Source: a virus. From it: a DNA stretch of 40,507 nucleotides. Below the pieces are notes generated by a model. The model was given only the letters and a program-made list of their open reading frames with translations. It was not told the origin of the DNA and did no database searches. The translations under genes were made by a program, and so were the position numbers. The stretch spans positions 1 to 40,507 of the IMG/VR virus record IMGVR_UViG_3300039456_000006; one strand, 5' to 3'. Shown in pieces: positions 5,772-39,632 of the stretch; the first letter of the stretch is position 1, and each line of letters begins with the position of its first letter.

Positions 5772-5786
5772 GTGACGTTTTGTGAC
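5772..5786 (+). promoter_or_regulatory. Direct-repeat operator upstream of the exonuclease operon
   Basis: GTGAC at 5772-5776 and again at 5782-5786, ten bases apart, in the 165-bp gap between the exonuclease start (5655) and the RuvC gene end (5821). It is one of 16 sites of the same type. The gap holds no gene and should contain the promoter for the operon ending at 1205. Confidence 0.7.
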
Positions 5787-5820
5787 ACACGAGGCAAAAA
5801 AATAGAGCAATGCCAGGGAC

Positions 5821-6336
5821 TTACCCGGATTTGCGGAGTGTTTGCCGCGCCCCGAAGAGTGCGATCAAAGCGGCGTCGGCGCGGTTGTGATCCTTCTTGC
5901 GCTTGAAGAGCTCGGCGTGCCGGGGGAAGAGCTCGATCGCCAGTTGCCGCGCGGCCTCTTCGCCGTCGCTGCCCTTCTTGCCGTTGAGCTTGAATTCTTT
6001 CTTCCACTCTTGCGGCGTCGGTTGCGTGAAGGGCACGAGAGCGGCCGACAAGCATCCCTTAATCGCGCCGACGGCCTCACCGAATGCAAAGGCGCTCGCG
6101 GAGCCGTCTCTCGGTTGCGGCCCGACCTTCTCGAGATAGGCGAGATCGACCATATCGGCGCCGGTATCGGTGAAGATTGACAAGAGGTCGGCGATCGCGA
6201 CGCGCTTTCTCTTCGACTTGCCGACCTTGAGCTCGAAGGTTGGCACGTCGTGCACCTCGAGGAAGCCGCTCTCGGGATCGAGGATCGCGATCGCGCCGCT
6301 CGTGCCCGGGTCAATGCCTAGAATGAGTTTTCCCAT
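5821..6336 (-). CDS. RuvC-like Holliday junction resolvase
   Basis: A 171-residue protein with the RNase H-like fold of RuvC. The acidic residues are visible in order: Asp9 in LILGIDPGTSG, Glu69 in LAYLEKVGPQ, and the C-terminal HNRADAAL (His150, Asp154). It cuts four-way or branched DNA made by recombination and replication, which helps prepare DNA for packaging. The TAATG overlap with the HTH gene upstream fixes the start and suggests coupled translation. Confidence 0.92.
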   Translation of the reverse strand: MGKLILGIDPGTSGAIAILDPESGFLEVHDVPTFELKVGKSKRKRVAIADLLSIFTDTGADMVDLAYLEKVGPQPRDGSASAFAFGEAVGAIKGCLSAALVPFTQPTPQEWKKEFKLNGKKGSDGEEAARQLAIELFPRHAELFKRKKDHNRADAALIALFGARQTLRKSG

Positions 6337-6527
6337 TAGCCTTGAGCCTCGAGCTCGAGCTTGTCGAGGTAAGACTTACTGATTAGAATTGAGTCGCCAA
6401 CCATTGCGTGCGGAAACTTGCCGCGCTTACATGCTCGGCGCAAAGTTGTAGCATTTAGGCCGAGACGCTTCGCGGCCTCGGGGATCGTGCAGAAGCCCGA
6501 TTTTGGCGCTTCATCATTGGAGCTCAT
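6336..6527 (-). CDS. xis: Excisionase-like MerR/HTH_17 protein
   Basis: A 62-residue protein with a single HTH of the excisionase type: FCTIPEAAKRLGLNATTLRR, then CKRGKFPHAMVGDSILISK. ATG 6527 is chosen because GAGGG lies six bases upstream; a longer frame to 6569 would include operator sequence. It is divergent from the RHH-integrase operon, the usual place for a directionality factor or early regulator. Excisionase is the likeliest role given the nearby integrase; a simple transcription regulator is the alternative. Confidence 0.75.
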   Translation of the reverse strand: MSSNDEAPKSGFCTIPEAAKRLGLNATTLRRACKRGKFPHAMVGDSILISKSYLDKLELEAQG

Positions 6528-6562
6528 GGCTTGCCCTCTTTTTGTGAAATGTTGCCCGACTT

Positions 6563-6577
6563 GTGACATTTTGTGCC
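6563..6577 (+). promoter_or_regulatory. Direct-repeat operator before the xis-like gene
   Basis: GTGAC (6563-6567) and GTGCC (6573-6577), ten bases apart, 36 bp upstream of the xis-like start. It lies downstream of the likely -10 box at 6600-6605 of the minus promoter, so a bound protein would block transcription from it. Confidence 0.7.
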
Positions 6578-6599
6578 GGTTCCTAAGCGATACCGTCTA

Positions 6600-6629
6600 A
6601 ATATAGCCCATGCAATCACAAAACGTCAC
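6600..6629 (-). promoter_or_regulatory. Probable minus-strand promoter with overlapping operator
   Basis: On the minus strand GTGAC (6629-6625) and GTGAT (6619-6615), ten bases apart, precede a good -10 box TATATT (6605-6600) by nine bases. The repeats occupy the -35 and spacer region, where a bound protein would either repress or replace -35 contacts. It would drive the xis-like and ruvC-like genes. Confidence 0.6.
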
Positions 6630-6726
6630 AAGATATAGTTTTGCCGCATAGGGCGCGTAAGTGTCTGTTAAGCAAGGTTTTTATTTTTGCATGGGTGCTG
6701 TGAAAATTTGTATAAGTTGAAAAAAC

Positions 6727-6775
6727 GGCACATAACGGCACATTCTTGACGCTTTAACTGATTCCCTTGTTAGGT
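6727..6775 (+). promoter_or_regulatory. Operator and candidate promoter of the RHH-integrase operon
   Basis: Two GGCAC words (6727-6731 and 6737-6741), which are GTGCC on the minus strand, lie ten bases apart inside two tandem copies of AACGGCACAT. They stand just upstream of TTGACG (6746-6751), a near-consensus -35 box. A weak -10 (TTAGGT, 6770-6775) follows at 18 bp. The arrangement suits regulation of the plus-strand RHH-integrase transcript. The surrounding 6570-6888 gap is unusually AT-rich for this genome. Confidence 0.55.
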
Positions 6776-6837
6776 AAAAATTAGCCTATTTAGTAATAAA
6801 TGTGCACAAACTAGAAAATATGTGTATGAGTAGAGTT

Positions 6838-6852
6838 GTGACACGAAGTGCC
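6838..6852 (+). promoter_or_regulatory. Direct-repeat operator just before the RHH gene
   Basis: GTGAC (6838-6842) and GTGCC (6848-6852), ten bases apart, end 36 bp before the RHH start codon. This is where an autoregulating RHH protein would bind its own leader. Confidence 0.7.
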
Positions 6853-6888
6853 ACGTTGCAATGATTGCCCCACTAGGGAGATAAAAAA

Positions 6889-7203
6889 ATGTCAAAAGCC
6901 GAATATGTCCAAAAGCGGTTCAGAATTCCAAAGAGCCTTCACGACGAGCTCGAGGCCGACGCGATCGCCTACGGCACCAATGTACAAAGAGAGCTCGTCT
7001 CTCGGCTGATCCGCGGCTCGAGGAAAGCAAGCTCGGCCGGAATGAGTGCCGGAATAACCGTCGGAGAGCTCGAGGTCGCCCAGAAGCTAAACGAGAGCCT
7101 CTCGGCCGTGCTCGGCAATATGAAGCGGAGCGTCGAGGTTAGCGAGACAATCGCGCGCCAAGACTCTATGGAGCACGAGCTTGACGACGAGACCGAAGAA
7201 TGA
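6889..7203 (+). CDS. Arc-type ribbon-helix-helix regulator
   Basis: A 104-residue protein. Residues about 7-44 follow the Arc/MetJ RHH plan: strand VQKRFRIP, helix KSLHDELEADAIAYG, helix NVQRELVSRLIRG. Residues about 60-104 form an acidic helical extension ending DDETEE. RHH dimers insert the strand into the major groove and often bind tandem direct repeats. The start has GGGAG eight bases upstream. It overlaps the integrase gene by ATGA and so is co-expressed with it. It is the best candidate for the missing lysogeny repressor and for binding the GTGAC operators; that link is inference. Confidence 0.88.
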   Translation: MSKAEYVQKRFRIPKSLHDELEADAIAYGTNVQRELVSRLIRGSRKASSAGMSAGITVGELEVAQKLNESLSAVLGNMKRSVEVSETIARQDSMEHELDDETEE

Positions 7204-8444
7204 GCGACGACGCGAAGGTCTATCTCACCGAGCGCAAGCCCGGCGTTTTTATGGTGCGCACCTATCTTGGCACCGACGGCGCGGGGAAGCCGCTCTTCAA
7301 GCATGAGACTTTTAGAGGCACCAAGAACGAAGCGCGCGCTCGTGTGCACGACCTCGAGGCCGCGATCCTTCGAGGTGCGGCGCCCGGGCTCTCGGGTGAG
7401 ACCTTCGGGGGCTTCTGCGATAAGCATATCGAGAAAGAGGAGCGAGACGAGCGCCTCGAGCCCTCGACGCTCAAAGGATACCGCGAGGCGCGAGCGAGGA
7501 TCACCGCCAAGCTCGCGGTTATGCCGCTCGAGGAGCTCCACGCGAGCGACCTCGAGGAATGGCTCGGCTCTCTCTTGAAGAAGGGACTCTCGCCGACGAC
7601 CGTCAAGAATTCTCACGCCTTCGCCCGGCTCGTGCTCTCGCGAGCGGTCGATCTCGAATTGATCCCGGGCAATCCGGCGAAGCGCGTCAAACCACCGAAG
7701 CCCAAAAACAAGCGGCGCCGCGAGGTGTCCTTCGACGACTTCGAAGACTCGGTCGAAGCGACGACCGACGAGAAGATCGCCACGATCGAGCGCGACGTCG
7801 TGCTAAAGGTCGTCGCCAGTTTCGAGGCGAAGATCGAGGGGCGCCCTTGGATGAAGCCGAGCCCTTGCCTTGCCGCGGCGATCTTCACGGCCTACGCAAC
7901 CGGCCTACGCCGGGGCGAGCTCGTCGGTCTCTCGTGGAAAGACGTCGACCTCGATCGGGGCACGCTAAAGATCGCGCGCGCCGTCTGGTGGCCCTACGGT
8001 AACGAGAATCCGATCATCAAAACGACAAAGGGGGGAGACTCCCGCGAGATCATGCTCTCGCTCGAGAATGTCGCGCGCTTGAAGACTTGGCGGGTCAAGC
8101 TCGCCGAGCTCGCGCTCTCGAAGGGCAAGCGAGCGCCCTCGATCTTGTTTCCCGATCCGGCGACGCTCGGCGTCATGCGGCCCGACCTTCTCTCGAATAA
8201 GTTTCGGACTCGGATCAAGGCGCTCGATCTCGGGGGCAATAAATCCTTTCACGCGCTGCGACACACTCACGCGAGCGAGCTCCTCGAGAGGGGCGAGCCG
8301 GTGCGTAACGTCTCGGAGCGCCTCGGTCACAAAGACGTCGCGACGACGCTCCGGGTTTACGCGCACGCCTTGCCGGGGAGCGATCCCGGCTTTCAATCGA
8401 GGCTCGACGCTCTTCTTCGCGGCCCATCACCGCTAGACGACTAG
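7200..8444 (+). CDS. int: Tyrosine-family site-specific integrase
   Basis: A 414-residue phage integrase. An N-terminal arm-binding part (about 1-60) is followed by a SAM-like core-binding domain (about 60-165) and a catalytic domain with Arg237 (TGLRRGE), His351 and Arg354 (HALRH), His377 (GHKD) and nucleophile Tyr387 (LRVYAHA). It should recombine attP with a host tRNA-Cys gene (see 9491-9539) and bind the CTGCACAAAGGT arm repeats. It is co-transcribed with the RHH regulator. A hairpin terminator follows at 8455. Confidence 0.95.
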   Translation: MSDDAKVYLTERKPGVFMVRTYLGTDGAGKPLFKHETFRGTKNEARARVHDLEAAILRGAAPGLSGETFGGFCDKHIEKEERDERLEPSTLKGYREARARITAKLAVMPLEELHASDLEEWLGSLLKKGLSPTTVKNSHAFARLVLSRAVDLELIPGNPAKRVKPPKPKNKRRREVSFDDFEDSVEATTDEKIATIERDVVLKVVASFEAKIEGRPWMKPSPCLAAAIFTAYATGLRRGELVGLSWKDVDLDRGTLKIARAVWWPYGNENPIIKTTKGGDSREIMLSLENVARLKTWRVKLAELALSKGKRAPSILFPDPATLGVMRPDLLSNKFRTRIKALDLGGNKSFHALRHTHASELLERGEPVRNVSERLGHKDVATTLRVYAHALPGSDPGFQSRLDALLRGPSPLDD

Positions 8445-8454
8445 CCAAAAGAAG

Positions 8455-8482
8455 AGAGCCCCCGGATCACTCCGAGGGCTCT
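8455..8482 (+). terminator. Hairpin terminator after the integrase
   Basis: AGAGCCC (8455-8461) pairs with GGGCTCT (8476-8482), and CGGA (8463-8466) with TCCG (8471-8474), around a TCAC loop with one mismatch. A T-rich stretch follows about 15 bases later. It ends the RHH-integrase transcript and may work in both directions. Confidence 0.7.
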
Positions 8483-8587
8483 TCCCGCGCTCTTATTCAT
8501 TTTTATTTTGCGCTTCGCCGGTCGCTAGGCAGGAGGTTAGACCTTTGTTATCCGGCTGACGAGGTTAGACACACTCTCGCCTTGTGT

Positions 8588-8613
8588 GCGCCCGGTGAAT
8601 TTAGGCCGGGCGC
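8588..8613. terminator. GC-rich hairpin between convergent genes
   Basis: GCGCCCGG (8588-8595) pairs with CCGGGCGC (8606-8613) around a ten-base loop. It lies between the integrase (+) and the gene ending at 8624 (-). It has no T-tract on either side, so it is a weak or rho-assisted terminator at best. The rest of the 8445-8623 gap shows nothing further. Confidence 0.5.
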
Positions 8614-8623
8614 GGTTGTTGGG

Positions 8624-8857
8624 TTAGAGAGACGCGCCCAAGAGGAAGCCCAGAGAGCCGCCAAGAGAGACGCCGACGATCGCACGGAAGGCGAGGTCTT
8701 CTAGCCGGTCGTGCCAGAGCGCACGGCGAAGCTCTCGCTCTTGGCGATGCAATTTATCGAGCTCGGGTTGCGAGGGGATTCGGGGAAAGCGAGCTTCTTT
8801 CGCGTCACGCGCTGCGATCTTGTCGAAGTCGATCTCGGAAAAAATTCGGGTGTTCAT
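8624..8857 (-). CDS. Small protein with a C-terminal membrane segment
   Basis: A 77-residue protein: a charged N-terminal half (RQERELRRALWHDRLED) and one hydrophobic C-terminal helix (about residues 57-76, AIVGVSLGGSLGFLLGASL). It is probably a tail-anchored inner-membrane protein with the charged part in the cytoplasm. It is coupled by ATGA to the gene upstream. Expressed beside int and attP, it could be a lysogenic-conversion or exclusion protein; this is a guess from position only. Confidence 0.65.
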   Translation of the reverse strand: MNTRIFSEIDFDKIAARDAKEARFPRIPSQPELDKLHRQERELRRALWHDRLEDLAFRAIVGVSLGGSLGFLLGASL

Positions 8858-9168
8858 GCTGCAATCTCCTTGCGAGGTGTGTGTTGAATGGCCGTTACGT
8901 CTTCGTCGTAATCGGCATGAGAGAAGCGCGACACAAAGCCGAGCGGGTTAGCGTGCTCTCCGGCGACGTGGATCACGGCCGCGCGGTGCAGGGTGTCACG
9001 GATTGCCACGACCTCGGCGCTCGTCATGCGCTTGGGAAGGGCGAGCTTAACAAGCCTTCCACCGTGGACTTTGCGGGTCTCGCTTACGACTTCGACGGTA
9101 AAGATAAGGCGCGTCCCTCGAGGGAAGGAGCAACCGGCGGGGAGCTTTAGAAGATCGCTTTGTGACAT
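8854..9168 (-). CDS. Hypothetical protein next to attP
   Basis: A 104-residue soluble protein with alternating strands and one Ala-rich helix (TSAEVVAIRDTLHRAAV). No family was recognised. The operator at 9162-9176 overlaps its start codon, and a likely promoter with a second operator lies about 52 bp upstream (9220-9250), so its expression should be tightly controlled by the phage-wide regulator. Transcription from the attP side would cross 9326-9236 to reach it. It is coupled to the membrane protein gene downstream. Confidence 0.65.
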   Translation of the reverse strand: MSQSDLLKLPAGCSFPRGTRLIFTVEVVSETRKVHGGRLVKLALPKRMTSAEVVAIRDTLHRAAVIHVAGEHANPLGFVSRFSHADYDEDVTAIQHTPRKEIAA

Positions 9169-9176
9169 TGTGTGCT
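9162..9176 (+). promoter_or_regulatory. Operator overlapping a start codon
   Basis: GTGAC (9162-9166) and GTGCT (9172-9176), ten bases apart. The first word covers part of the ATG of the minus-strand gene starting at 9168. The second word deviates from consensus in the last base. Confidence 0.5.
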
Positions 9177-9219
9177 TTCATCGGCTGAGTGTGGGCCGAT
9201 CTAGCGCCTTTTGGGCGAA

Positions 9220-9260
9220 ATAGTAAAGCCGAAAAGTGACGTATTGTGACAAATTGCCCG
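9220..9260 (-). promoter_or_regulatory. Promoter-operator for the gene at 8854-9168
   Basis: GTGAC words at 9236-9240 and 9246-9250 (plus strand) lie ten bases apart, and GCCCG follows at 9256-9260, again in phase. Read on the minus strand, the repeats precede GGCTTTACTAT (9230-9220), whose last six bases make a -10 box. The same 11-mer stands beside an operator at 37625-37635, which supports a shared promoter class. Confidence 0.65.
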
Positions 9261-9311
9261 TAAAGAACGAATAGGCCACTGTAAAATATAGGAAAGATAG
9301 GGTGTAAAAAT

Positions 9312-9326
9312 GTGCCGACTTGTGAC
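9312..9326 (+). promoter_or_regulatory. Direct-repeat operator near the left attP arm
   Basis: GTGCC (9312-9316) and GTGAC (9322-9326), ten bases apart, 28 bp from the left arm repeat of attP. It may control the promoter below it or affect recombination by binding near the arm. Confidence 0.65.
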
Positions 9327-9353
9327 GCTCGATCGACGCCTTCCCGCTCGATC

Positions 9354-9377
9354 CTGCACAAAGGTCTGCACAAAGGT
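9354..9377 (+). other. attP left arm: tandem integrase arm-type repeats
   Basis: Two perfect head-to-tail copies of CTGCACAAAGGT (9354-9365 and 9366-9377). The same doublet recurs in the same orientation at 9587-9610 on the other side of the tRNA-like core. This is the expected layout of arm-type sites for a tyrosine integrase. Confidence 0.85.
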
Positions 9378-9490
9378 TTAAGGTTCGGTCGTTGTTTTTA
9401 TTGGATAATTTCGCCCGGAATGTTCACAAAAGCCCGATATGCCCGATTTGTGCACTCGGGGCGTAAGCTCTTGAAACTACGGGGGAAATT

Positions 9491-9539
9491 TGGAGGCGAG
9501 TAGGGGAATCGAACCCCTGTTCACGGATTTGCAATCCGC
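9491..9539 (-). other. attP core: 3' half of a tRNA-Cys(GCA) gene
   Basis: On the minus strand the sequence reads as the 3' part of tRNA-Cys: a 5-bp anticodon stem with GCA anticodon (9531-9533 region), a four-base variable loop, an AGGGG/CCCCT T-arm with TTCGATT loop, acceptor strand ACTCGCC, discriminator T and encoded CCA (9493-9491). The discriminator T matches the known identity base of tRNA-Cys. No D-arm or 5' acceptor strand is present, so this is not a working tRNA. It should equal the host attB, letting integration restore an intact tRNA-Cys gene. Confidence 0.9.
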
Positions 9540-9586
9540 GGACATAGCACGCTTTGATAAGCAAAAACAAAGACATAAACGAAAAG

Positions 9587-9610
9587 CTGCACAAAGGTCT
9601 GCACAAAGGT
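9587..9610 (+). other. attP right arm: tandem integrase arm-type repeats
   Basis: Two perfect copies of CTGCACAAAGGT (9587-9598 and 9599-9610), identical to the left-arm doublet. A GTCAC operator starts at the next base (9611), so the regulator and the integrase could compete or cooperate here. Confidence 0.85.
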
Positions 9611-9637
9611 GTCACGAGTCGTCACGCGACCCGTCAC
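9611..9637 (-). promoter_or_regulatory. Three-word operator abutting attP
   Basis: GTCAC (GTGAC on the minus strand) at 9611-9615, 9621-9625 and 9633-9637. The first two are ten bases apart, the third twelve. It directly follows the right attP arm with no spacer. Confidence 0.7.
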
Positions 9638-9673
9638 AATGAGCCGGAATAGTCTTTTAGAATCGGTGAGGGC

Positions 9674-9688
9674 GTCACGAGGCGTCAC
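9674..9688 (-). promoter_or_regulatory. Direct-repeat operator downstream of the lysis genes
   Basis: GTCAC at 9674-9678 and 9684-9688, ten bases apart. It lies 32 bp past the end of the lysis operon. A minus-strand promoter here would read through attP towards 9168; acting on read-through from the late operon is an alternative. Confidence 0.65.
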
Positions 9689-9719
9689 GTTTGTGATTCT
9701 GCCGTGTTCGCGTTTGTTC

Positions 9720-9926
9720 TCACTCGCTCGAGGTCGTCACGATCGCGAGGAGATCGCCAAGATTGAGCGGCTCGAATGCCGGAGCTTCTCGGCCGGTCGC
9801 CTCGATCGCGAAGATCGCAACCGGCGCGATAAGCACATTCCAAGCGATCATGCCGACGGCGATCCAGCCAAGGGCACGCCGGAAGCGTGAGCTCGTCGAG
9901 AGCGTGAGTCCTGTCGTTTCATTCAT
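9720..9926 (-). CDS. Putative holin, short version of the GTA 3TM holin type
   Basis: A 68-residue membrane protein. Residues about 15-42 (RRALGWIAVGMIAWNVLIAP, then VAIFAIEA) are hydrophobic. The RxxxGW...WNxLxAP pattern followed by LNLGDLLAIV resembles the 3TM holins of gene transfer agents and alphaproteobacterial phages, which are usually longer and have more membrane segments. It follows the Rz/Rz1 pair with an 8-bp overlap and ends the late operon. It would form the membrane lesion that starts lysis, or modulate the other candidate at 13147. Confidence 0.6.
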   Translation of the reverse strand: MNETTGLTLSTSSRFRRALGWIAVGMIAWNVLIAPVAIFAIEATGREAPAFEPLNLGDLLAIVTTSSE

Positions 9927-10170
9927 CTTTGCACCTGTCGAATTTGCGAGCCTCGGCCGCGAGGGCTTCGGCGTCGCGTCTGGTCGTGATTGAGCAAGAG
10001 CCCCACCCGCGGCCGGTGATCGCCGGAGCGACGCCGGGCGCGCATAGATCGAGGAGCTCGACCCGGGAAGCCCGGGCGCAATAGTCGGTCGTCACGATCG
10101 CCGGGGGCTTCAAGCACCCGCTAACGAGGGTCGCCACCAATAACGCGACGAAGGTCTTCGTCTGTCGCAT
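9919..10170 (-). CDS. Outer-membrane spanin lipoprotein (Rz1-like)
   Basis: An 83-residue protein with a short signal peptide and lipobox LVSGC (Cys19), followed by a Pro-containing segment (LKPPA). ATG 10170 is chosen because AAGGAG lies seven bases upstream; TTG at 10188 is a worse alternative. It starts inside the i-spanin gene in another frame, the classic Rz/Rz1 overlap, here about 50 bp. Together the pair should bridge inner and outer membranes and fuse them in the last step of lysis, which also shows that the host is Gram-negative. Confidence 0.75.
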   Translation of the reverse strand: MRQTKTFVALLVATLVSGCLKPPAIVTTDYCARASRVELLDLCAPGVAPAITGRGWGSCSITTRRDAEALAAEARKFDRCKDE

Positions 10171-10381
10171 CCTTGACTCCTTTCTCAATCTCTCGGGCTT
10201 CCTCGAGGGCTTCGACGAGGCGCTTCGCCCCCTCGGCCTCGAGGTAGGCGACGACGGCTTCTCGCTCGGCCGCTCGCGCCGTTGGTATCTTGCGAAGGTG
10301 CGCGTCGAGGTTTGCCGCCCCGGCGCCGATCACGAAGCCCACGACGAGCGCGATCTTCGTTTGAAAGCCGAGGGCGATCAT
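10121..10381 (-). CDS. Inner-membrane spanin (Rz-like)
   Basis: An 86-residue protein with an N-terminal membrane anchor (about residues 6-24, QTKIALVVGFVIGAGAA) and a long charged helix (EREAVVAYLEAEGAKRLVEA and on), the layout of a type II i-spanin. ATG overlaps the endolysin stop (ATGA at 10378-10381). The 3' end overlaps the Rz1-like gene. Frames that extend further upstream are shadows of the endolysin gene. Confidence 0.75.
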   Translation of the reverse strand: MIALGFQTKIALVVGFVIGAGAANLDAHLRKIPTARAAEREAVVAYLEAEGAKRLVEALEEAREIEKGVKDATDEDLRRVIGGDPR

Positions 10382-11373
10382 TCGAAAGCCCTCTTGATCT
10401 TCGGGATCGCCCAAACGTGAAGCACGACAAGCGCCGCGAAGGTGAAGCCGCCGACGATCACGAGCTCGGCCGTCGGGGAGAGCTCCTCGAGCATCCGGCC
10501 GAGCACGCCGCCCCCGGCCGCGGGCGCGAGATACTTCGCCACGGCCTCGACTTGGCGATCGCCGCTCGTCTCTTGGTCTCTCGGCTCGATCCGGGCGTCT
10601 GGCACGGCGTCGCGTAGCTGGCGCCACGTCTGCGCACCGACGACGCCGTCGGTCACGAGCCCCTCGGCACTTTGGAAGAGGAAGACGGCCGAGAAGGTCT
10701 TCGGCCCGAATTCGCCGTCGATCTCGTCGGAGCCGAGAAGCCCGAGCTCGGCGAGCCGCTCTTGAAGCGCGACGACCGATCGGCCGCTCGAGCCCTCGCG
10801 CAAGATCACGGCCGACCCGGCGCCCCCGGAGAAGCGGCGATAGGCGCGCTCGATCTTCCCGGCGTAATCCGCGGCCTTGCCGTTGCCGTTGTAGGTCGAG
10901 GCGAAGGTGAACCAATCATGCGCCCGGAGAGCGGAGTCGATCCCCTTCGAGAGCACGAATTCCGCGAAGGCGCGCACTTGCTCGTCGGGTTGCTCGAAGG
11001 CTTCGACGAGCTCGCTCGCGCTGTCATACCCGACGGCCGCGTAATTGAATCCCATGATCTGAGGGGCGCCCCACGACGCCGCGCGCTTTGCGGCCTCGGC
11101 GTTGAGCGTGAGCGCCTCTCGGTACATCTTCGCGCGCCGGGTCTTCGATACCTTGAGGGAGGCTCGCCACGGCTTCACGTTGCCGGGATCAAAGCCGATC
11201 GAAGCCCAGAGCGACCGGGGCAAATGGTGAGGCTCAAAACGCCGGAGCGGAGAGCCGTCGGAATTGAAGTAGACGCCCGCGGCCTCGACCGCAAAGACGG
11301 CCCGGATCGCGGCGAGATCGCAACCGATCTTCGCGGCGACTTCTCGAAATACGTTTTCGCTTGCTTTGGTCAT
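10378..11373 (-). CDS. Endolysin: N-acetylmuramidase domain, peptidoglycan-binding domain, C-terminal membrane helix
   Basis: A 331-residue protein. Residues about 5-185 match the DUF3380 N-acetylmuramidase family, with the likely catalytic Glu30 in FAVEAAGVYF, RFEPHHL, and GAPQIMGFNYAAVGY. Residues about 200-265 are a PG_binding_1 domain (GRSVVALQERLAELGLL, GEFGPKTFSAVFLFQ). Residues about 300-322 form a hydrophobic helix (VIVGGFTFAALVVLHVWAIP) before a basic end. It cleaves cell-wall glycan strands. A C-terminal anchor is unusual for a phage endolysin. It starts by ATGA overlap with the kinase gene. Confidence 0.9.
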   Translation of the reverse strand: MTKASENVFREVAAKIGCDLAAIRAVFAVEAAGVYFNSDGSPLRRFEPHHLPRSLWASIGFDPGNVKPWRASLKVSKTRRAKMYREALTLNAEAAKRAASWGAPQIMGFNYAAVGYDSASELVEAFEQPDEQVRAFAEFVLSKGIDSALRAHDWFTFASTYNGNGKAADYAGKIERAYRRFSGGAGSAVILREGSSGRSVVALQERLAELGLLGSDEIDGEFGPKTFSAVFLFQSAEGLVTDGVVGAQTWRQLRDAVPDARIEPRDQETSGDRQVEAVAKYLAPAAGGGVLGRMLEELSPTAELVIVGGFTFAALVVLHVWAIPKIKRAFE

Positions 11374-31067: not shown

Positions 31068-32800
31068 ATCAGAAGAAGCCCTCGGCCTTCGTAAACGCTC
31101 GCCGCGCCCTCTTGATCGAAGATCGCTTTCCCTAGCGCCATGATCGAAGAGATCGCCGCGTCGATCTTGTTTTCTGGTCTTTCCTTGCGGGGGTAGACAT
31201 TGCCGCGGGCGTCGTAATGCCCGACGACGTTTCCGATATTCCAAGCAAGCACCGGGTTGCCGTCGTGCACGAGATTGCCGCTCCGAATAAGAGCGTCGAG
31301 CTCCTTCGTCGGCTCGGAAAAGTTTTGCGTCGTTGCTCGAAACTCGACCATTTCCACCCCTTCCGCTTGCATTCGTTGCGCGAGTTGTGTCGCGCTCCAA
31401 GGATCAAAAGCCACCGACCGCAACCGGAAACGCCCTCGGGCGTCGAGGATCGCGGCCTCGATTGCTTCAAAGTCGGTTATGTCACCGCTTGTCACAAGAA
31501 GGTGGACGTTGTTCGCCCACTCGACATAGGAAGAATTTCGGCCGTCGGTCACGGCGAGCTCGGGCAAAAAGCATTTATTGAAAAGCGCCCAAGGCTCGCC
31601 GGTGCCCTCTTGCGGGGGGAAGAGGAGCGAGAGCGAGGCGAGGTCGGTCTTCGTCGAGAGGTCGAGCCCGGCGTAACAATCGCGCCCTTCGTAATGCTCG
31701 AGCTCGAGCGTCGGGTCGCCGAGCTTGATCCAGTTCGCCAAGGAGAAGAGCGCGTCGTCGGCGCCGACCCAAATATTCAAATGCCGAGTCTTGAATGCCG
31801 CCTCGCGTGCTGGCGACTGTTGCGCTTGCGTTGCGATCGCTTGGATCGCGTCGGGTTGCACCGCGACGCCCCAAGACGGATTCGCTTTCTGCCAAGTCTC
31901 GGGACTCCAAATGTCGTCGTCGGCGTCGGCCGCGTAAAGGATTCCGAAAATGCGATCGTCGTCGACTTGCCCCCGGAGCACCTTCTCGACGTAGGTCCAA
32001 AGCTGGCGACCGACTCCGCTCGTGTTGCCGGTCGCGGTCGAGATCGACAAGAGGAAAGGTTGCGCCCGCTTGCCGAGCGCGGTCAAGAGCACGTCGTAAA
32101 CCTCGCTTGTCTTGTGCGAGGCGATCTCGTCGCAAACGGCGACGTGCACGTTAAGGCCGTCGAGGCTCTTCGCGTCGCTGGCGATCGGCTTAAAGTTCGA
32201 CGCCGTCGTCGATTGATAGATCGCGTTTGCGCCCTTCTCGACGCCGAAGCGGTCGAGCAATTGCGGCGTGCGGCCGACCATATGTTGCATGGTCGAGAAG
32301 AGAATTCGCGCCTGATCGCTGGTCACGGCCGCGGCGTATCCCTCGGCGCCGCCTTCGCCTTCAATAAAATTCATGTAGAGCGAGAGGGGCGCGGCGACGG
32401 TCGTCTTCCCGTTGCCCCGGGGCACGTAGACGACGCCTTGCCGAAAGCGTCGGTTGCCGTTGTCGTCGACGAAGCCGAAGACATTCAACCAAACGAAGCA
32501 TTGCCAAGGCAAGAGGCCGAGCGGCTTCCCGGCGAGCGGCCCCTTAATGTTCGGCAAGAGTTGCGCGAAGACGATCGCGTCTTCGGCGAGCTCGGCCTCG
32601 AAGCCCCACTTCCCGAGCTCGACGTCGCCGAAGAATCTTTGCACCGCCCGGATAACAAACTCGCCCGCGGGAATCCGACCTTGCACAATGTCGACGGCAT
32701 ACGCCCAAGCCCGGGCGCAATTTGGATTCTCGCCGAAGTCGAAGGGCGCCTCGGGAATTTGGTCGGAGCTCCAAGGCTCGCAACCGGCGATCGTGCTCAT
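31064..32800 (-). CDS. Terminase large subunit
   Basis: A 578-residue packaging motor of the Terminase_1 type. Walker A is VPRGNGKTT (about residues 127-134), Walker B VAVCDE (Asp224, Glu225), and the RNase H-like nuclease shows Asp380 in YAGLDLSTKTD, VAFDPWSA and KIDAAISSIMAL. It cuts concatemers and pumps DNA into the head. ATG 32800 overlaps the stop of the preceding 65-residue gene. An open frame of over 570 codons on the opposite strand is a GC-driven shadow. Confidence 0.96.
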   Translation of the reverse strand: MSTIAGCEPWSSDQIPEAPFDFGENPNCARAWAYAVDIVQGRIPAGEFVIRAVQRFFGDVELGKWGFEAELAEDAIVFAQLLPNIKGPLAGKPLGLLPWQCFVWLNVFGFVDDNGNRRFRQGVVYVPRGNGKTTVAAPLSLYMNFIEGEGGAEGYAAAVTSDQARILFSTMQHMVGRTPQLLDRFGVEKGANAIYQSTTASNFKPIASDAKSLDGLNVHVAVCDEIASHKTSEVYDVLLTALGKRAQPFLLSISTATGNTSGVGRQLWTYVEKVLRGQVDDDRIFGILYAADADDDIWSPETWQKANPSWGVAVQPDAIQAIATQAQQSPAREAAFKTRHLNIWVGADDALFSLANWIKLGDPTLELEHYEGRDCYAGLDLSTKTDLASLSLLFPPQEGTGEPWALFNKCFLPELAVTDGRNSSYVEWANNVHLLVTSGDITDFEAIEAAILDARGRFRLRSVAFDPWSATQLAQRMQAEGVEMVEFRATTQNFSEPTKELDALIRSGNLVHDGNPVLAWNIGNVVGHYDARGNVYPRKERPENKIDAAISSIMALGKAIFDQEGAASVYEGRGLLLI

Positions 32801-33525: not shown

Positions 33526-33540
33526 TTTCCCCTTACGCTC

Positions 33541-33879: not shown

Positions 33880-33913
33880 GGGGGGAGGGCTTTCGCTTGC
33901 GGTTGCTTTCGAA

Positions 33914-33946
33914 ACTATATCGGCACGCTTTGTCACGTAATGCCAC
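33914..33946 (-). promoter_or_regulatory. Late promoter with three-word operator
   Basis: On the minus strand GTGGC (33946-33942), GTGAC (33936-33932) and GTGCC (33926-33922) follow each other at exact 10-bp steps. They are followed by a -10 box TATAGT (33919-33914), 35 bp before the HNH start. This is the likely start of the long packaging, head, tail and lysis transcript. Confidence 0.65.
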
Positions 33947-33972
33947 CCGGTGCCCGTTGTTCACAAAAGAAA

Positions 33973-33998: not shown

Positions 33999-34004
33999 AT
34001 TTCG

Positions 34005-34073: not shown

Positions 34074-34088
34074 ATTGAGTCCCTGTTT

Positions 34089-34103
34089 GTCACTAGGCGT
34101 CAC
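34089..34103 (-). promoter_or_regulatory. Direct-repeat operator at the end of the replication operon
   Basis: GTCAC (GTGAC on the minus strand) at 34089-34093 and 34099-34103, ten bases apart, abutting the stop codon of the gene at 34104. It precedes the possible micropeptide gene and may act as a stoperator in read-through transcription. Confidence 0.65.
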
Positions 34104-34826
34104 TCAAAAAGGAATCTCGTCGTCGAGCCCTTTCGCTCTCGGCGTCTCGAATAGCTCGAGCCCGGCGCCAGTGTCGGGCGCCTTCTCCTCGTGCGGCTTA
34201 ATGTCGGTGATCTTCGCCTTCGGGAAGTGCTCGAGCACCTCGCGCACGAGCTCGAGGCGTGAGCTCTCGTATATCCGAATAAGCATCTCGATTGAGAGCA
34301 CCCGGGGGGCTTGCTCTTTGTCGACGTGCTCGAGCGTCCCGGCCCGATCTTCTTCGGTAAAGCCGATCAAGTATTCGCCGCGCTCGCCGGTGTACGACCA
34401 AACGGTGATAGGCAAGGTCGGTTGCCCGAGCCTCGAGGCTTCCTCGTCGAGAGCGATCCACCCGCGATAGAGAATCCCGGCTTCTCGAGCGACCTTCGTC
34501 CCGTCGCCCTCGTCGATCGCCAGATTAAGCCGCTCGAAGACCGCTCGGAATTTCGAGGCCGTCTCGGGCGTCACGAGTGTCTCGAGCCGATCTTTGCCCC
34601 ATTTGTTTTCCATCTTCATTGCGATCTCGTCGAGCGGCCGCAATGCGCCATAGATCGCGCCGAAGACGGCGTCGCCTCGAGCGTCGGGGTTTGTGAAGAC
34701 GTCGGGCTTCGAGCCCGCTCTCCTCGAGCCCCTCGCGCCCGGCTGGCGTTTCGGCTTGGGCGCGTTTGGCGAATTCGGCAAGGGGCGCTTGAGGGCGCCA
34801 ATTTGTCTTCCCATTACGTCGGGCAT
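34104..34826 (-). CDS. Replication-module protein with an SSB-like C-terminal tip
   Basis: A 240-residue protein of unknown family. The N terminus is basic and Pro-rich (ALKRPLPNSPNAPKPKRQPG), the middle is helical (MKMENKWGKDRLETLVTPET, RAVFERLNLAIDEGDGTK), and the last residues are DDEIPF, nearly the DDDIPF tip of bacterial SSB that binds PriA, RecO, exonuclease I and polymerase III. An OB fold is not obvious. It may be a diverged SSB or recruit host replication proteins. ATG 34826 has AAGGA at the right distance. The iteron origin lies directly upstream. Confidence 0.75.
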   Translation of the reverse strand: MPDVMGRQIGALKRPLPNSPNAPKPKRQPGARGSRRAGSKPDVFTNPDARGDAVFGAIYGALRPLDEIAMKMENKWGKDRLETLVTPETASKFRAVFERLNLAIDEGDGTKVAREAGILYRGWIALDEEASRLGQPTLPITVWSYTGERGEYLIGFTEEDRAGTLEHVDKEQAPRVLSIEMLIRIYESSRLELVREVLEHFPKAKITDIKPHEEKAPDTGAGLELFETPRAKGLDDEIPF

Positions 34827-34863
34827 TTGAGCATCCTTTTCTCGGAGTGTTTTCGTTGTCGTT

Positions 34864-35053
34864 TGCATCGGTCCATTTGTCATTGGCTCGAGCATCGCGC
34901 ACCGGCCCCCCTAAAGGGGGGGACCGATGCAACCGATGCAGCGAGCAAAATCAATGACTTAGCGGCTATTGGTGAAAGTGCACAATTGCGCACTAATCGG
35001 GCGCGTGCATCGGTTGCATCGGTGCCCAAAAATAGGCCGATGCAACCGATGCA
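34864..35053. repeat. Iteron cluster, probable replication origin
   Basis: Seven copies of the 9-bp word ACCGATGCA (one copy starts with G) lie in 190 bp: 34864-34872 (inverted), 34923-34931 and 34932-34940 (direct pair), 35006-35014 and 35015-35023 (inverted pair), 35036-35044 and 35045-35053 (direct pair). A CCCCCC/GGGGGG hairpin lies at 34906-34922 and an inverted repeat GTGC/GCAC near 34978-34993. There is no gene between 34827 and 35070. Iterons beside the primase-helicase gene are typical of an origin bound by the initiator. Confidence 0.8.
34906..34922. other. C6-TAAA-G7 hairpin in the origin region
   Basis: Six C (34906-34911) and seven G (34916-34922) flank TAAA, giving a very stable hairpin that ends at the first iteron pair. 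There is no T-tract on either side, so termination is unlikely. A structural role in the origin, for example as a priming site, is possible. Confidence 0.6.
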
Positions 35054-35070
35054 GAGAGCCGCGAGGGCGC

Positions 35071-37488
35071 TCATTGCGAGCGGCCCGGGCGATAGCATGG
35101 GCGAGAATTCCGGTTCTTGTCTTTCCCATCGAATTGCTCGAGCACGCCGTTTTTGAGCCATATCTTCGCGACGTATTTCGCGCGTGCGGCGCCTTCGTCG
35201 GAGCTCACGTCGAAGTCGCATATCTCGCCGATCAAGTGCCCGATCCAGTTCTCGGATTTAGCGTCGACCCGATAGGCGAGACCGTCGACGGCCTTCTCGC
35301 CACATTCGGAGCGCACGGCGTTAGCGTGCTCGAGCGTGATCCCGTCGAAGGGATCGGGGGGCGCCCATCTGGTCACGATCGCGACGTGATCGCCCTTATC
35401 GTCGAGAGGGTCGTTTTCGGGGGCATTTGGGAGCTCGACGCCCTCGAGGTGATACCATTCCGCGACCTCGGCCGGGGGGCTCATGTTTTGCTTGCCGTCG
35501 CCAATCTTCACATATGAGCGAATAAGGGCTTCGGGAATTCCGAGGCGCTTCGCTTCCTGTTCTGACATACGATTGAGCGATCTATTCGAGCGAGAGGCGC
35601 CAGAGAGCGACCCGGCTCCTCGAGCGTCGTCGTCGGTCGTGTCTCGATCCTGATCGCCCGAGCTCTTCTTCCTGCTATGGTGAACAATCTCGACCGCGAT
35701 CTTCGCCTCGCTGGCGAGCTTTGCGAGGCGCTTCACGACGAGGTCGATCGCGTTATTATCGTTTTCGTTGACGCCGTGCGACGAGACGAAGGGGTCGAAG
35801 ATCAAGACGTCGATCCGCTCGTCTTTGCAGAATGTGAGAAGCCCCTCGAGGAGCTCTTCGTTAACGAGCGTGCCCTCGCGTGTATCGGCCGCGAGCTTCA
35901 CCTCTTGGTCACGCCCAGAGAGCGCAAAGAAGCGGCCCTTCGTGTCGGCTGTGGTGAGCTTGTAATGAATGAGCGCCGCCGCGATCCGACGGTGAATCTC
36001 GTCGAGCGGGTCTTCGAGGTTGAAGTAAGCGACCCGGAGAGGCGCCTTGACGAAGTGCCCGAGGAGCGGTCGGCCGGTCGCCATAGCGAGCCCCTCGATC
36101 ATCACGAGAGTCGACTTTCCGACGCCGCCGGGGGCGATCGTTACCGAGCAATACTCGCGGATATAGTGCTTGCCGTATAGGAAGGCGCGCTTCGGGATCG
36201 TCGAGAAGTCGGAGAGCGAGAAAGCCTTCGGGGGGGAGAATTTCGTGCCGAAGGGCGAGGGGGGCGCCGGAGGTCCGACGCTCTCGCCCGGTGCGGCTTG
36301 TGCGGCGATCGCGGCTTGCTCTTTGGCTCGCTCGATCGTTTCCATGCCGGAGATCGCGCCGTCTTGAGCGCGCCGGATATGAGTCCCGCATTTATCCCAA
36401 AACCATGTTCGACCGCGCGCCTCGCGCTCGAGGCCGTCTTCGGGTTGCTCGCCGGGGATCGCCCTCTTCGGTCCCGCCTTCGCCGCATAGGTCGGCCAAG
36501 CGTCGAGAAAGAGCTCGTCGGCTGTCGGCCACCGATCGAAGGTCGCCGCGAGGTTGCGGATTGCCCCGCCGATAATCTGCATCGCGTATTCGTCGCGGCC
36601 GTCGATCCGGCGCCCGAGCATGTCATAAGTGCGCTCTCGGCCGATCGGATCTTGATTCCCAGGATTCGGGGGCTGTTTTGGTAGCGATTGCAACGGGTTA
36701 GGCGGTTGCGAGGTGCTCGGAGGGCTCGAGGGCGCCGTCGGGGGCGCGGGTTGCGGCGTCGTCGCCAGTAGATCGCCGGTCACGCCTTTCTCGTCGTCTT
36801 TGGCCTTCTTGCGCACGGCTTTTGCATCGCCCGGGGGATATGCCGCCTTTGTGCTCTCGATCGTGTAGGGCTCGGCCGGAGCGGTGCCGGGTGTATGGTA
36901 TTCGGTGAGCTCGACCTCGCGGCCCTTCTTGCCGGGCTTCGGCCACGATATGCACCCGGGGAGACGCATCACGCGATCGGCGTTGACGACCGCCGCGTCG
37001 GCGACCGATCCGAGGCCGAGGTAAACGCCCGCGAGCATTGCGTCGAGCTCGTCTTGATCTGTCACAAGCTGGTCGAGCTTCCAGAAGCCTTGCACGCGCT
37101 TTGCAGGTTTGCGGCCGGTGACGACGATCGAGTGCGGCGATCCGAGCCCCTCGTAAAGCGGCTTGGCGATCTCGGCCGCGCCCTTGTCGTCGAAGTCGGC
37201 CCAGACCATCGGAGCGCCGACGACTTGCTTCTTCCCGTTCCTCTTCTCTCGGAGTGAATCCAATTTGCGCAAGCCGGGCGCGAAATAGGCGTTATTGCCT
37301 TCGGTTCGGTTGACCTGCACCGCGAAGTTAGCGGCTTCGATCCGGCCGTCGGGCGTGTTGTCGAAGAGCTTCGCCCGGTTGATCTTCATGCCGAAGGCGA
37401 TCTCGATCAATCCGGGCTCGGCAATGTGTCCGAAGTGCCGATCGAGGAAGTCTTTCACGACGCCCGGGTCGGCTCTCAATTCTGGCAT
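35071..37488 (-). CDS. Primase-helicase (RepB-like primase fused to RepA-like ATPase)
   Basis: An 805-residue replication protein. Residues about 1-230 resemble RepB-like archaeo-eukaryotic primases: PMVWADFDDKG with acidic residues near 97-100, RVQGFWKL and DRVMRLPGCISWPKPGK. A Pro-rich linker follows (residues about 260-310). Residues about 430-640 form a RecA-type ATPase like RepA helicases, with Walker A APGGVGKST near 455 and DVLIFDPF as Walker B, then EIVHHSRKKSSG. It should open and prime the origin at 34864-35053. ATG 37488 is preceded by GAGAGAG; longer frames are not supported. Confidence 0.88.
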   Translation of the reverse strand: MPELRADPGVVKDFLDRHFGHIAEPGLIEIAFGMKINRAKLFDNTPDGRIEAANFAVQVNRTEGNNAYFAPGLRKLDSLREKRNGKKQVVGAPMVWADFDDKGAAEIAKPLYEGLGSPHSIVVTGRKPAKRVQGFWKLDQLVTDQDELDAMLAGVYLGLGSVADAAVVNADRVMRLPGCISWPKPGKKGREVELTEYHTPGTAPAEPYTIESTKAAYPPGDAKAVRKKAKDDEKGVTGDLLATTPQPAPPTAPSSPPSTSQPPNPLQSLPKQPPNPGNQDPIGRERTYDMLGRRIDGRDEYAMQIIGGAIRNLAATFDRWPTADELFLDAWPTYAAKAGPKRAIPGEQPEDGLEREARGRTWFWDKCGTHIRRAQDGAISGMETIERAKEQAAIAAQAAPGESVGPPAPPSPFGTKFSPPKAFSLSDFSTIPKRAFLYGKHYIREYCSVTIAPGGVGKSTLVMIEGLAMATGRPLLGHFVKAPLRVAYFNLEDPLDEIHRRIAAALIHYKLTTADTKGRFFALSGRDQEVKLAADTREGTLVNEELLEGLLTFCKDERIDVLIFDPFVSSHGVNENDNNAIDLVVKRLAKLASEAKIAVEIVHHSRKKSSGDQDRDTTDDDARGAGSLSGASRSNRSLNRMSEQEAKRLGIPEALIRSYVKIGDGKQNMSPPAEVAEWYHLEGVELPNAPENDPLDDKGDHVAIVTRWAPPDPFDGITLEHANAVRSECGEKAVDGLAYRVDAKSENWIGHLIGEICDFDVSSDEGAARAKYVAKIWLKNGVLEQFDGKDKNRNSRPCYRPGRSQ

Positions 37489-37527
37489 ATGGTGCTCTCT
37501 CTTGCTGGCGTGATTCGGTTCCGATAC

Positions 37528-37542
37528 GTGACGAAGCGTGAC
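37528..37542 (+). promoter_or_regulatory. Direct-repeat operator before the replication operon
   Basis: GTGAC at 37528-37532 and 37538-37542, ten bases apart, 40 bp upstream of the primase-helicase start. It lies in the 218-bp divergent gap 37489-37706 that should hold promoters for both directions. Confidence 0.7.
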
Positions 37543-37603
37543 GGTCCGACTCGAGCAATAGCCCACGAAATATGCGCTAGTCGAGCGAATAATTCGGGAA
37601 TGT

Positions 37604-37635
37604 GTGACAAAAGGTGACAAATAGGGCTTTACTAT
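37604..37635 (+). promoter_or_regulatory. Early rightward promoter with operator
   Basis: GTGAC at 37604-37608 and 37614-37618, ten bases apart, followed six bases later by GGCTTTACTAT (37625-37635), whose TACTAT may be the -10 box. The same 11-mer stands beside the operator at 9236-9250. It should drive the small plus-strand genes from 37707. Confidence 0.65.
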
Positions 37636-37706
37636 GCCGGGCAATAGTGTAGAAATGTGCACATAACGAACACGCCCGAGAGGGCCAGAGACCCGGAGAG
37701 ACACCA

Positions 37707-37922
37707 ATGACTTTCGAAGCCGCAACCGCCAAGATCGACGACTTCTTCGCCCTTAACGTGCGCACCGGCGAGCGCCTCGCCGCCGAGTATGCCGCCGAGA
37801 CCGAGCAATATATCTTCGTCACTGATAACGTGCTCGACGTTCTGGACTTGCCCCGCGCCGAGCGCCTCGTGAATTACGTCGAGGATCGCTTCGACGCGAT
37901 CAACGGGGAGTCGGCTCAATGA
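37707..37922 (+). CDS. Small early protein, unknown
   Basis: A 71-residue acidic alpha/beta protein (ATAKIDDFFALNVRTGERLA, then LDVLDLPRAERLVNYVEDRF). First gene of the rightward early operon, with GGAGAG seven bases before ATG and the operator-promoter about 70-100 bp upstream. It overlaps the next gene by ATGA. Small first-expressed phage proteins often modify the host or block defences; nothing specific can be claimed. Confidence 0.75.
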   Translation: MTFEAATAKIDDFFALNVRTGERLAAEYAAETEQYIFVTDNVLDVLDLPRAERLVNYVEDRFDAINGESAQ

Positions 37923-38155
37923 GCCCGGCCCTCGAAGCCCGCAAGAGCGGCCTCGAGCTCGCCCTCTCCGAAGTGATCGGAGAGGCCGTCGAGATCACGA
38001 TCCGCGGCCCTCGCGCCTTCACCTTCTCGACCGAGCGCGTCGTCGCCGAGTTGCCGGTGAAGCTGATCGAATACTTCGGCGCCCGGATGCACTTCGAGAG
38101 CGTCGAGCACGACGCCGAGATCGGGTCTTTCGTTTACATGGGGGCGAGCGCGTGA
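37919..38155 (+). CDS. Small early protein, unknown
   Basis: A 78-residue protein with strand-rich sections (AVEITIRGPRAFTFSTERVV, LIEYFGARMHFESVEHDAEI). The start overlaps the upstream stop and the stop overlaps the next start, so it is translated in a chain. No family was recognised. Confidence 0.75.
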   Translation: MSPALEARKSGLELALSEVIGEAVEITIRGPRAFTFSTERVVAELPVKLIEYFGARMHFESVEHDAEIGSFVYMGASA

Positions 38156-38382
38156 GCGCCCGCTTCACCCGCCGCGCCGTCGAGAAGGCGATCGGCGACG
38201 ACCGCTTGACGCTGCAAAAGTATGAGGCCGGGTCGGGCTCTTACTGGTATTTCGTCTTTGACGATCTCGACGCCGGGGGCGACTATCGCGATCAAAGCGA
38301 ATACACGCCCCGGCTTTCTGATATGCCCCTCGAGCGTTGGGTCGAGATCGGCAAGAGATTTTTGAAGGAGTGCACGCAATGA
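38152..38382 (+). CDS. Small early protein, unknown
   Basis: A 76-residue protein with a basic N terminus (SARFTRRAVEKAIGDDRL) and an aromatic, acidic middle (GSYWYFVFDDLDAGGDY), ending in a helix (LERWVEIGKRFLKECTQ). GTG or ATG-type start by overlap with the upstream stop. No family recognised; coupled by ATGA at 38379-38382 to the next gene. Confidence 0.75.
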   Translation: MSARFTRRAVEKAIGDDRLTLQKYEAGSGSYWYFVFDDLDAGGDYRDQSEYTPRLSDMPLERWVEIGKRFLKECTQ

Positions 38383-38741
38383 ATAAGCGCAAAAAAATTA
38401 CGATCGGCCCTCGGGCGCTCGGCGTCTTCGCTGGCAAGATCGAGGATCGTCTCTCGGGCACCAATATGCAGCGCGACGTTTACCTAAAAATCGCCAGACA
38501 ATCGACGCGGCACGAGAAGGTGATCGTCGAGCTCACGGCCGACGAGTGCCTCGAGCTTTGCGAAGAGATCGACTTCGCCATAAATCCACGTTACGGCCGC
38601 GACCGCTACATTCACCCGGAGAGTGACGACGACCGCGCCGAGGTCCGATCTCTCCGGCGCCTTTACAACCGGCTCGACGAGGCCGCGACCGAGCTCCTCG
38701 GCCCGGCGCCCGACGTGTCGCACTTGAGGGTCGTCAAATGA
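38379..38741 (+). CDS. Small early protein, unknown
   Basis: A 120-residue basic, helical protein. ATG 38379 is chosen because GAAGGAG lies about eleven bases upstream and it overlaps the preceding stop; a start at 38337 would duplicate coding space. VIVELTADECLELCEEIDFA and SLRRLYNRLDEAATELLG suggest a helical bundle. Function unknown. Confidence 0.75.
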   Translation: MNKRKKITIGPRALGVFAGKIEDRLSGTNMQRDVYLKIARQSTRHEKVIVELTADECLELCEEIDFAINPRYGRDRYIHPESDDDRAEVRSLRRLYNRLDEAATELLGPAPDVSHLRVVK

Positions 38742-39115
38742 GCGAGGGCGGGGATATGCACGAGCGGCTCGAGAAGGCCGCTCTCGCGATCGGTCTAACC
38801 GAGCACCTCGAGGCCGAGGCCAGTTATTACCGCTTCGAGGTCGAGCGCGACTATTCGGTCTCGCTTGGCGAATTCCTCGACGAATGGCACGACCGGCACC
38901 TTCAAGACCCGTCGGCCGGTTGGCTCGATCGGAAGAGCCTCGAGGTCGTGCGGCGTGCGTATATCGACGCCCGGATCGCGATCTCGAGCGAGGAGCTCGA
39001 CGGCTTCTATTTCGAGCGGCAAAGCACCGGGGGCAAGGGCTCGACGATCTGGTTTCGCCGGAAGGGCGTCGCCTATGAATACGAGCCGAGCTTCGACAAG
39101 GATAAAAGCCAATGA
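38738..39115 (+). CDS. Small early protein, unknown
   Basis: A 125-residue acidic protein (HERLEKAALAIGLTEHLEAE, FLDEWHDRHLQDP, STIWFRRKGVAYEYEPS). The high content of charged and aromatic residues and the lack of Cys suggest a soluble domain. An internal ATG at 38756 is a possible alternative start. Overlaps both neighbours by ATGA. Confidence 0.75.
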   Translation: MSEGGDMHERLEKAALAIGLTEHLEAEASYYRFEVERDYSVSLGEFLDEWHDRHLQDPSAGWLDRKSLEVVRRAYIDARIAISSEELDGFYFERQSTGGKGSTIWFRRKGVAYEYEPSFDKDKSQ

Positions 39116-39549
39116 GCACGCCCATTAAATTCCACGTCGACGGCCGCGTGAGCGTCGAGGGCGAGGTCGTCGGCACGGCCACCAATACCGGGCAAGGCTG
39201 GCGCTTCTCGGGCTTGAGCGGCGCTCTCTTCACTGGTCGCACGCGAGCCGACCTTCGCGACGTGATCCTCGCCGAGCGTTGGAAGGGGGCGCCCGAGCCC
39301 GTCCAGAAGCCCGGGCGCGACGGTCGCTTGCATGGGGGCAACTATAGCAAGGCCGAGGCGCCCGGATATTACGCCGGGCTCGAGGGCAAGGCGTTTAGCT
39401 TCAAGGCCGCGCCCGAGCCCGATCCCGAGAAGCGGCCGCGCGATCCCGGGACGATCTCTCGAGCCGGAGCGACGCCGGTCGCGGATAGCCCGGCGACATT
39501 GGCGAGGAAGCGGCGCCTCGAGGCTCTTCGAGGTCTGAAAGATAAGTGA
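39112..39549 (+). CDS. Early protein with basic C terminus, unknown
   Basis: A 145-residue protein. The N-terminal 60 residues form strands (STPIKFHVDGRVSVEGEVVG, GWRFSGLSGALF) and the rest is rich in Pro, Gly and basic residues, ending RKRRLEALRGLKDK, so a nucleic-acid contact is possible. It is the last gene before an operator that overlaps its stop codon at 39546-39570. Confidence 0.7.
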   Translation: MSTPIKFHVDGRVSVEGEVVGTATNTGQGWRFSGLSGALFTGRTRADLRDVILAERWKGAPEPVQKPGRDGRLHGGNYSKAEAPGYYAGLEGKAFSFKAAPEPDPEKRPRDPGTISRAGATPVADSPATLARKRRLEALRGLKDK

Positions 39550-39570
39550 CATAATGTGACGTTATGTGCA
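39546..39570 (+). promoter_or_regulatory. Three-word operator overlapping a stop codon
   Basis: GTGAC at 39546-39550 and 39556-39560 and GTGCA at 39566-39570, all at exact 10-bp steps; the first word contains the TGA of the preceding gene. It stands 82 bp upstream of the gene at 39652 and is the longest perfectly phased array of this type on the plus strand. Confidence 0.7.
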
Positions 39571-39617
39571 CATTTGTATTGCTAAACGGCGAAGAATCGG
39601 CGTAAGGTGATTCCAAT

Positions 39618-39632
39618 GGCACACGCCGTCAC
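39618..39632 (-). promoter_or_regulatory. Second operator before the gene at 39652
   Basis: GGCAC (39618-39622) and GTCAC (39628-39632), that is GTGAC-N5-GTGCC on the minus strand. It ends 19 bp before the next start codon, so two operators in opposite orientation flank this short gap. Confidence 0.65.

Follow-up and report, generated by a model that had tools for sequence, protein, structure and literature searches.

The window analyzed here is the entire IMG/VR record IMGVR_UViG_3300039456_000006 (40,507 bases), from a temperate, previously undescribed phage whose host is probably a marine alphaproteobacterium, and the element in question is a short paired word, GTG(A/C)C-N5-GTG(A/C)C, that recurs mostly in the gaps between its genes. 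The late genes run leftward from ∼33.9 to 9.7 kb, and the late operon is closed by a small membrane-protein-like, holin-like open reading frame (ORF) at ∼9720-9926 (MNETTGL...). A leftward early operon begins with the gene for an excisionase-like protein of the HTH_17 family (6336-6527, minus strand; 63 aa with the start codon chosen by hand), continues with a gene that we read as coding for a RuvC-like protein, and also encodes a PD-(D/E)XK nuclease. Diverging from the HTH_17 gene are the genes for a small Arc/ribbon-helix-helix (RHH)-like protein, for which only weak matches were found (6889-7203, plus strand), and for a tyrosine integrase (7200-8444, plus strand); a winged helix-turn-helix (wHTH), excision-factor-like gene is thus encoded near the integrase gene. 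A second phage wHTH protein (2769-3284, minus strand; 171 aa) is MarR_2/Trans_reg_C-like with a probable coiled-coil N-terminus.

The paired word surrounds the integration site of the phage and is located at nearly all its control regions. When both strands of the window were scanned for exact matches, 15 pairs were detected. An initial annotation of this DNA had listed sixteen sites, all with correct coordinates; the 14 pairs that it counted as fully fixed are indeed exact, and the sites at 6615 (second word GTGAT) and 9162 (second word GTGCT) carry one mismatch apiece, as it had noted, but one exact pair, at 31481-31495 on the minus strand within the terminase gene, was absent from its list. 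The spacing is strict: the N5 spacer gave rise to 15 pairs, every other spacer from 0 to 24 to two pairs at most, and N6 to none. First-order shuffles of the window (n = 300) contained 0.15 pairs on average and 2 at maximum vs the 15 observed, shuffled gaps alone are expected to hold 0.018 pairs, and the Poisson probability of 15 or more pairs is ∼2e-25. With one mismatch tolerated, 30 sites were observed against a shuffle mean of 5.3 and a maximum of 14. Chance as the origin of the pairs was ruled out by these shuffles, one-mismatch counts, and Poisson estimate. Gene starts and gaps in the window were called by eye, and 13 of the 15 exact pairs touch the hand-called non-coding gaps, which make up 8.2% of the window. 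The pair at 33922 overlaps coding sequence only through a questionable start codon of the HNH ORF, so that 13 to 14 pairs are within non-coding DNA or border on it; the pair at 31481 is the sole truly coding one and is consistent with chance. Phages with related terminases do not share the motif as a common feature (5 sites in 990 kb of 80 terminase-related phage loci, or 0.2 per 40 kb). A host-wide motif was likewise ruled out for the candidate host genus, in 20 genomes of which GTGAC-N5-GTGAC occurs ∼1-4 times per Mb, close to the reversed-pattern control, vs a pair density of ∼200 per Mb in the window. We concluded that the paired motif is real, with a strong excess over shuffled sequence and over coding DNA, and that an operator set with direct repeats one helical turn apart, as proposed in the initial annotation, is supported by the enrichment over shuffles, coding DNA, the 80 phage loci, and the candidate-host-genus genomes.

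The unit consists of two 5-bp words with a variable N5 between them. At this spacing the words are direct in 15 cases and inverted in none, and the base following the first word is a purine in all 16 listed sites, which together point to an asymmetric reader bound head to tail. A third word at -10 or +20 was not enriched at the listed sites; given this and the shared direction of the words, the unit is a directional pair and not a long array. Pairs are present in seven or more gaps, at operon starts and boundaries, and by inspection ∼8 are oriented with the adjacent gene and ∼7 against it. The internal gaps of the 24-kb late operon (10 to 33.5 kb) contain no pair.

Within the early region, the pair GTGACgttttGTGAC (5772-5786, plus strand) occupies the gap separating the exonuclease gene from the RuvC-like gene. 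The early operon also encodes a GapR DNA-binding domain (3281-3538, Pfam E-value 2e-28) and an MT-A70 methyltransferase (2003-2578, E-value 6e-24). The pairs at 6563-6852 are found between the divergent HTH_17 and RHH-integrase operons, a region whose gene content suggests a lysis-lysogeny switch: GTGACattttGTGCC (6563-6577, plus strand) in the leader of the excisionase-like gene; GTGACgttttGTGAT (6615-6629, minus strand, one mismatch), whose first word forms the -35-like hexamer of a leftward promoter-like match, GTGACG-18-TATATT; GTGCCgttatGTGCC (6727-6741, minus strand) in the divergent region itself; and GTGACacgaaGTGCC (6838-6852, plus strand) immediately upstream of the RHH-like/integrase operon, where the first word overlaps a promoter-like -35. 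Two of the three promoter-like matches in 5640-9720 take a GTGAC word as their -35-like hexamer (6629 minus and 6838 plus), the number of such matches being near the shuffle mean.

Further right, a 50-bp segment (9490-9539, minus strand) is identical to the 3' end of a tRNA-Cys(GCA) gene of Tateyamaria pelophila and has two CTGCACAAAGGT repeats on its left (9354-9377, plus strand) and two on its right (9587-9610, plus strand). We take the tRNA copy as the attP core and the repeats as arm-type integrase sites. The match to the tRNA gene suggests a host range within the Rhodobacterales but does not prove the host. Four pairs flank this site, a placement that the initial annotation had missed. 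On the left, GTGACgtattGTGAC (9236-9250, plus strand) is upstream of gene 8854-9168 and GTGCCgacttGTGAC (9312-9326, plus strand) stands immediately outside the left arm sites. On the right, GTGACgactcGTGAC (9611-9625, minus strand) abuts the right arm sites and GTGACgcctcGTGAC (9674-9688, minus strand) follows 63 bp away from it, past the 3' end of the late operon; there is no evident promoter for either of these two pairs to serve. The one-mismatch pair GTGACattgtGTGCT (9162-9176, plus strand) spans the start codon of gene 8854-9168.

At the other end of the late genes, GTGACaaagcGTGCC (33922-33936, minus strand) is located where the HNH/terminase operon begins, with a terminator-like hairpin (33998-33973) upstream of it, and GTGACgcctaGTGAC (34089-34103, minus strand) comes directly after gene 34104-34895. 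The pair GTGACgaagcGTGAC (37528-37542, plus strand) lies upstream of the primase-helicase gene and GTGACaaaagGTGAC (37604-37618, plus strand) upstream of a rightward operon beginning at 37707, while GTGACggcgtGTGCC (39618-39632, minus strand) is in the leader of gene 39652-39885. The pair GTGACataatGTGAC (39546-39560, plus strand) is followed in phase by the palindrome TGTGCACA; the extra word described at 39546 in the initial annotation is present, but it belongs to this palindrome as its left half. Only three copies of TGTGCACA exist in the window (6801, 37656, and 39565), none in coding DNA, and each sits in the gap upstream of one of three rightward gene sets. The palindrome may be a second type of operator.

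No close relative of the phage was found in IMG/VR (searched by integrase, RHH, RuvC, helicase, capsid, and HTH_17), in INPHARED (DNA and protein searches), or in ∼400 genomes of the candidate host family (integrase, RHH, and HTH_17). L010 and L011, two contigs considered as relatives, were dismissed as not truly related. A scan for two neighboring pairs, in which contigs were selected for the GTGAC pattern itself, returned many phage contigs with period-10 GTGAC arrays among the matches listed, the arrays being at single loci and often near replication genes. Neither HTH_17 nor Trans_reg_C is consistently shared among these listed contigs, and they were not used as evidence for a binder. Period-10 GTGAC arrays with varied spacers occur in L121 (198-278), L126 (3106-3140), L130 (5774-5881), L177 (9049-9139), L181 (854-945), L184 (8946-9027), L215 (6382-6462), and L219 (9099-9180), and their readable neighbors are often replication/cell-cycle-type genes (DnaA C-terminal domain, GcrA). 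In L158 the array (4845-4956) adjoins a DnaA-box-like TGTGGATAA, which suggests that the locus is an origin. In L012 (3503-3527), a phage with a distant AAA_25 relative, three GTGAC words 10 bp apart lie close to the 3' terminus of a helicase ORF. L173, a match from the same scan with a related wHTH, was rejected, its GTGMC pairs being inside an ORF.

The signal resembles a binding site for a single phage protein, which would switch many phage genes together. Our favored reading, to which we assign a probability of roughly 0.43, is that the pairs form one genome-wide operator set of a phage wHTH protein bound head to tail, the likeliest candidate being the HTH_17 protein 6336-6527. This protein matches HTH_17 with an E-value of 1e-10 and the PHROG family "excisionase and transcriptional regulator." Its predicted structure is a winged helix with a mean predicted local distance difference test score (pLDDT) of 78 and a core near 90, and among the solved folds nearest to it are those of BldC, P2 Cox, RdfS, and Pukovnik Xis (probability ∼1, with E-values of only 0.03-0.07). 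Excision factors recognize direct repeats set one turn of the helix apart; three of them, Apl, Cox, and RdfS, act as promoter regulators too (PMC7498355, PMC11963761). The four pairs around attP, with the one at 9611 abutting an arm site, support this assignment. One protomer would contact each 5-bp word, with two protomers adjacent on one helix face. Bound at attP beside the arm sites of the integrase, the HTH_17 protein would determine which way recombination runs. Its presence on the promoter regions of the early switch, the late operon, and the primase and right-hand units would repress or modulate transcription there. The motif with its spacing, direction, enrichment, and positions, the anatomy of attP, and the fold class predicted for the candidate are direct results of the analysis; the action at promoters, the identity of the binder, the occurrence of binding, and its effect are inferred. 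The position and orientation of the sites differ from promoter to promoter, and such varied geometry suits occlusion better than an activator of fixed geometry. More tentatively, a single small wHTH protein might be both excision factor and genome-wide regulator, acting through a two-word operator common to attP, the early switch, and the replication and late promoters.

The closest parallel is Apl of coliphage 186. In both systems attP and the lysis-lysogeny switch carry direct 5-bp words of the form xTG(A/C)C with a 10-bp period, beside the gene for a known (Apl) or candidate (HTH_17) helix-turn-helix excision factor, and the order of the RHH and integrase genes diverging from the HTH_17 gene resembles cI-int/apl of 186. 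In a control search of the phage 186 genome, TTG(A/C)C-N5-TTG(A/C)C occurred four times, and every copy fell at one of the two Apl sites annotated there, attP and pR-pL. Apl operators differ in their first base (T vs G here) and occupy two places as longer arrays, whereas here pairs are spread over seven or more gaps including the late and replication promoters; beyond a 16-residue match, no homology is detectable between the 6336-6527 protein and Apl. RdfS of ICEMlSym R7A and P2 Cox are wHTH excision factors with a fold similar to that predicted for the candidate and regulate promoters as well, but RdfS has no clear consensus motif and the words here are strict. Several points weigh against assigning the set to the HTH_17 protein. 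Known excision factors are loose in specificity and limited to att and one switch, in contrast to a strict set that also covers late and replication promoters. Apl requires three adjacent words, whereas the present pairs show no enrichment of a third; we therefore do not class the set as Apl-type, although the need for three words is a feature of Apl that is unproven for every excision factor. HTH_17 genes are no commoner in the contigs selected for GTGAC arrays than in control phages. The likeness of the words to those of Apl was noticed after the fact, could be convergence, and is given modest weight.

As the main rival reading, the same set might instead be read by the second wHTH protein, 2769-3284, as an OmpR/PhoB-type domain binding as a tandem dimer and serving as the main early/late regulator, a possibility that we regard as doubtful though substantial. 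The targets of OmpR-type domains are two direct repeats with a period of about one turn (PMC9275681), an arrangement that would suit the strict two-word unit, and the Trans_reg_C-like match has an E-value of 4e-4 (9e-6 in a per-genome search), but its score of 20.7 bits is under the curated cut-off of 26.2 (the MarR_2 match passes). A distant phage fragment, L214, encodes a homolog of this protein (29% identity over 72 aa, E-value 5e-8; Trans_reg_C E-value 1e-4, likewise under the curated cut-off) near five GTGAC pairs. These pairs (5669-5860) lie between helicase and terminase genes, roughly where the window has 34089 and 33922, and the L214 helicase (44% identical over 310 aa) is the closest among the matches listed. 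Since the fragment stops short of any excisionase region, it is neutral between the HTH_17 protein and the 2769-3284 protein. A family search found the family of the latter to be rare in the listed GTGAC-array contigs (2/38 vs 0/38 in controls). The 2769-3284 protein has a wHTH match only, with no receiver domain, and as reader it would leave unexplained the pairs that separate attP from the 3' terminus of the late operon. A regulator of the host is very improbable. Alphaproteobacterial OmpR-type regulators such as CenR resemble the present case in reading two direct words about one turn apart with a winged helix, but the known sites of CenR (TGA-N8-TGA) and ChvI (GCC-N8-GCC) both have an 11-bp spacing, which is the wrong one for a window with no pair at the N6 gap. 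The near-control pair rate in the candidate host genus also argues against a host reader, with the reservation that the true host is not proven.

RHH dimers bind tandem short repeats, and the Arc/RHH-like protein 6889-7203, whose gene is co-operonic with the integrase gene and corresponds in position to cI of phage 186, could be a lysogeny repressor placing one dimer on each word. We consider this unlikely, because an RHH dimer is two-fold symmetric and should tolerate inverted words, of which none was observed against 15 direct pairs. The protein has a weak Arc-like PHROG match (E-value 0.009) and no Pfam match even at an E-value of 10, its AlphaFold model is of low confidence, and the palindrome TGTGCACA that precedes the three rightward units would suit an RHH protein better than the pairs do. 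About equally unlikely, or marginally more so, is a reader among the other phage proteins, namely a CII-like activator or the HTH protein 3535-3963. CII-type activators recognize two direct words about one turn apart, and several phage ORFs are without assignment, one of them with weak HTH matches; no CII-like protein was found among the proteins of the window, however, and the placement of the pairs relative to promoter-like elements varies together with their orientation, unlike that expected of an activator. The initial annotation had compared the set to the stoperators of mycobacteriophage L5, which would block elongation, and the likeness is that many repeated sites are scattered in gaps across one phage genome. 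An L5 stoperator is one asymmetric site of 13 bp; such sites follow the direction of transcription, and most of them lie outside promoters (PMC9283540, PMC6550527). Here the words are paired, their orientation to the adjacent gene is mixed, the sites are at operon starts and boundaries, and the internal gaps of the late operon are empty; the L5-type comparison is therefore unsupported, and we give it hardly any credence.

Apl and Cox are known to act at att and one promoter pair, whereas the present set shares their grammar and is genome-wide. If the reading of the pairs as operators of the HTH_17 protein is true, a single decision would cover both excision and when each phage operon is expressed, tying excision to the whole lytic program. 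The words are strict and short, which would make the entire regulon readable from sequence.

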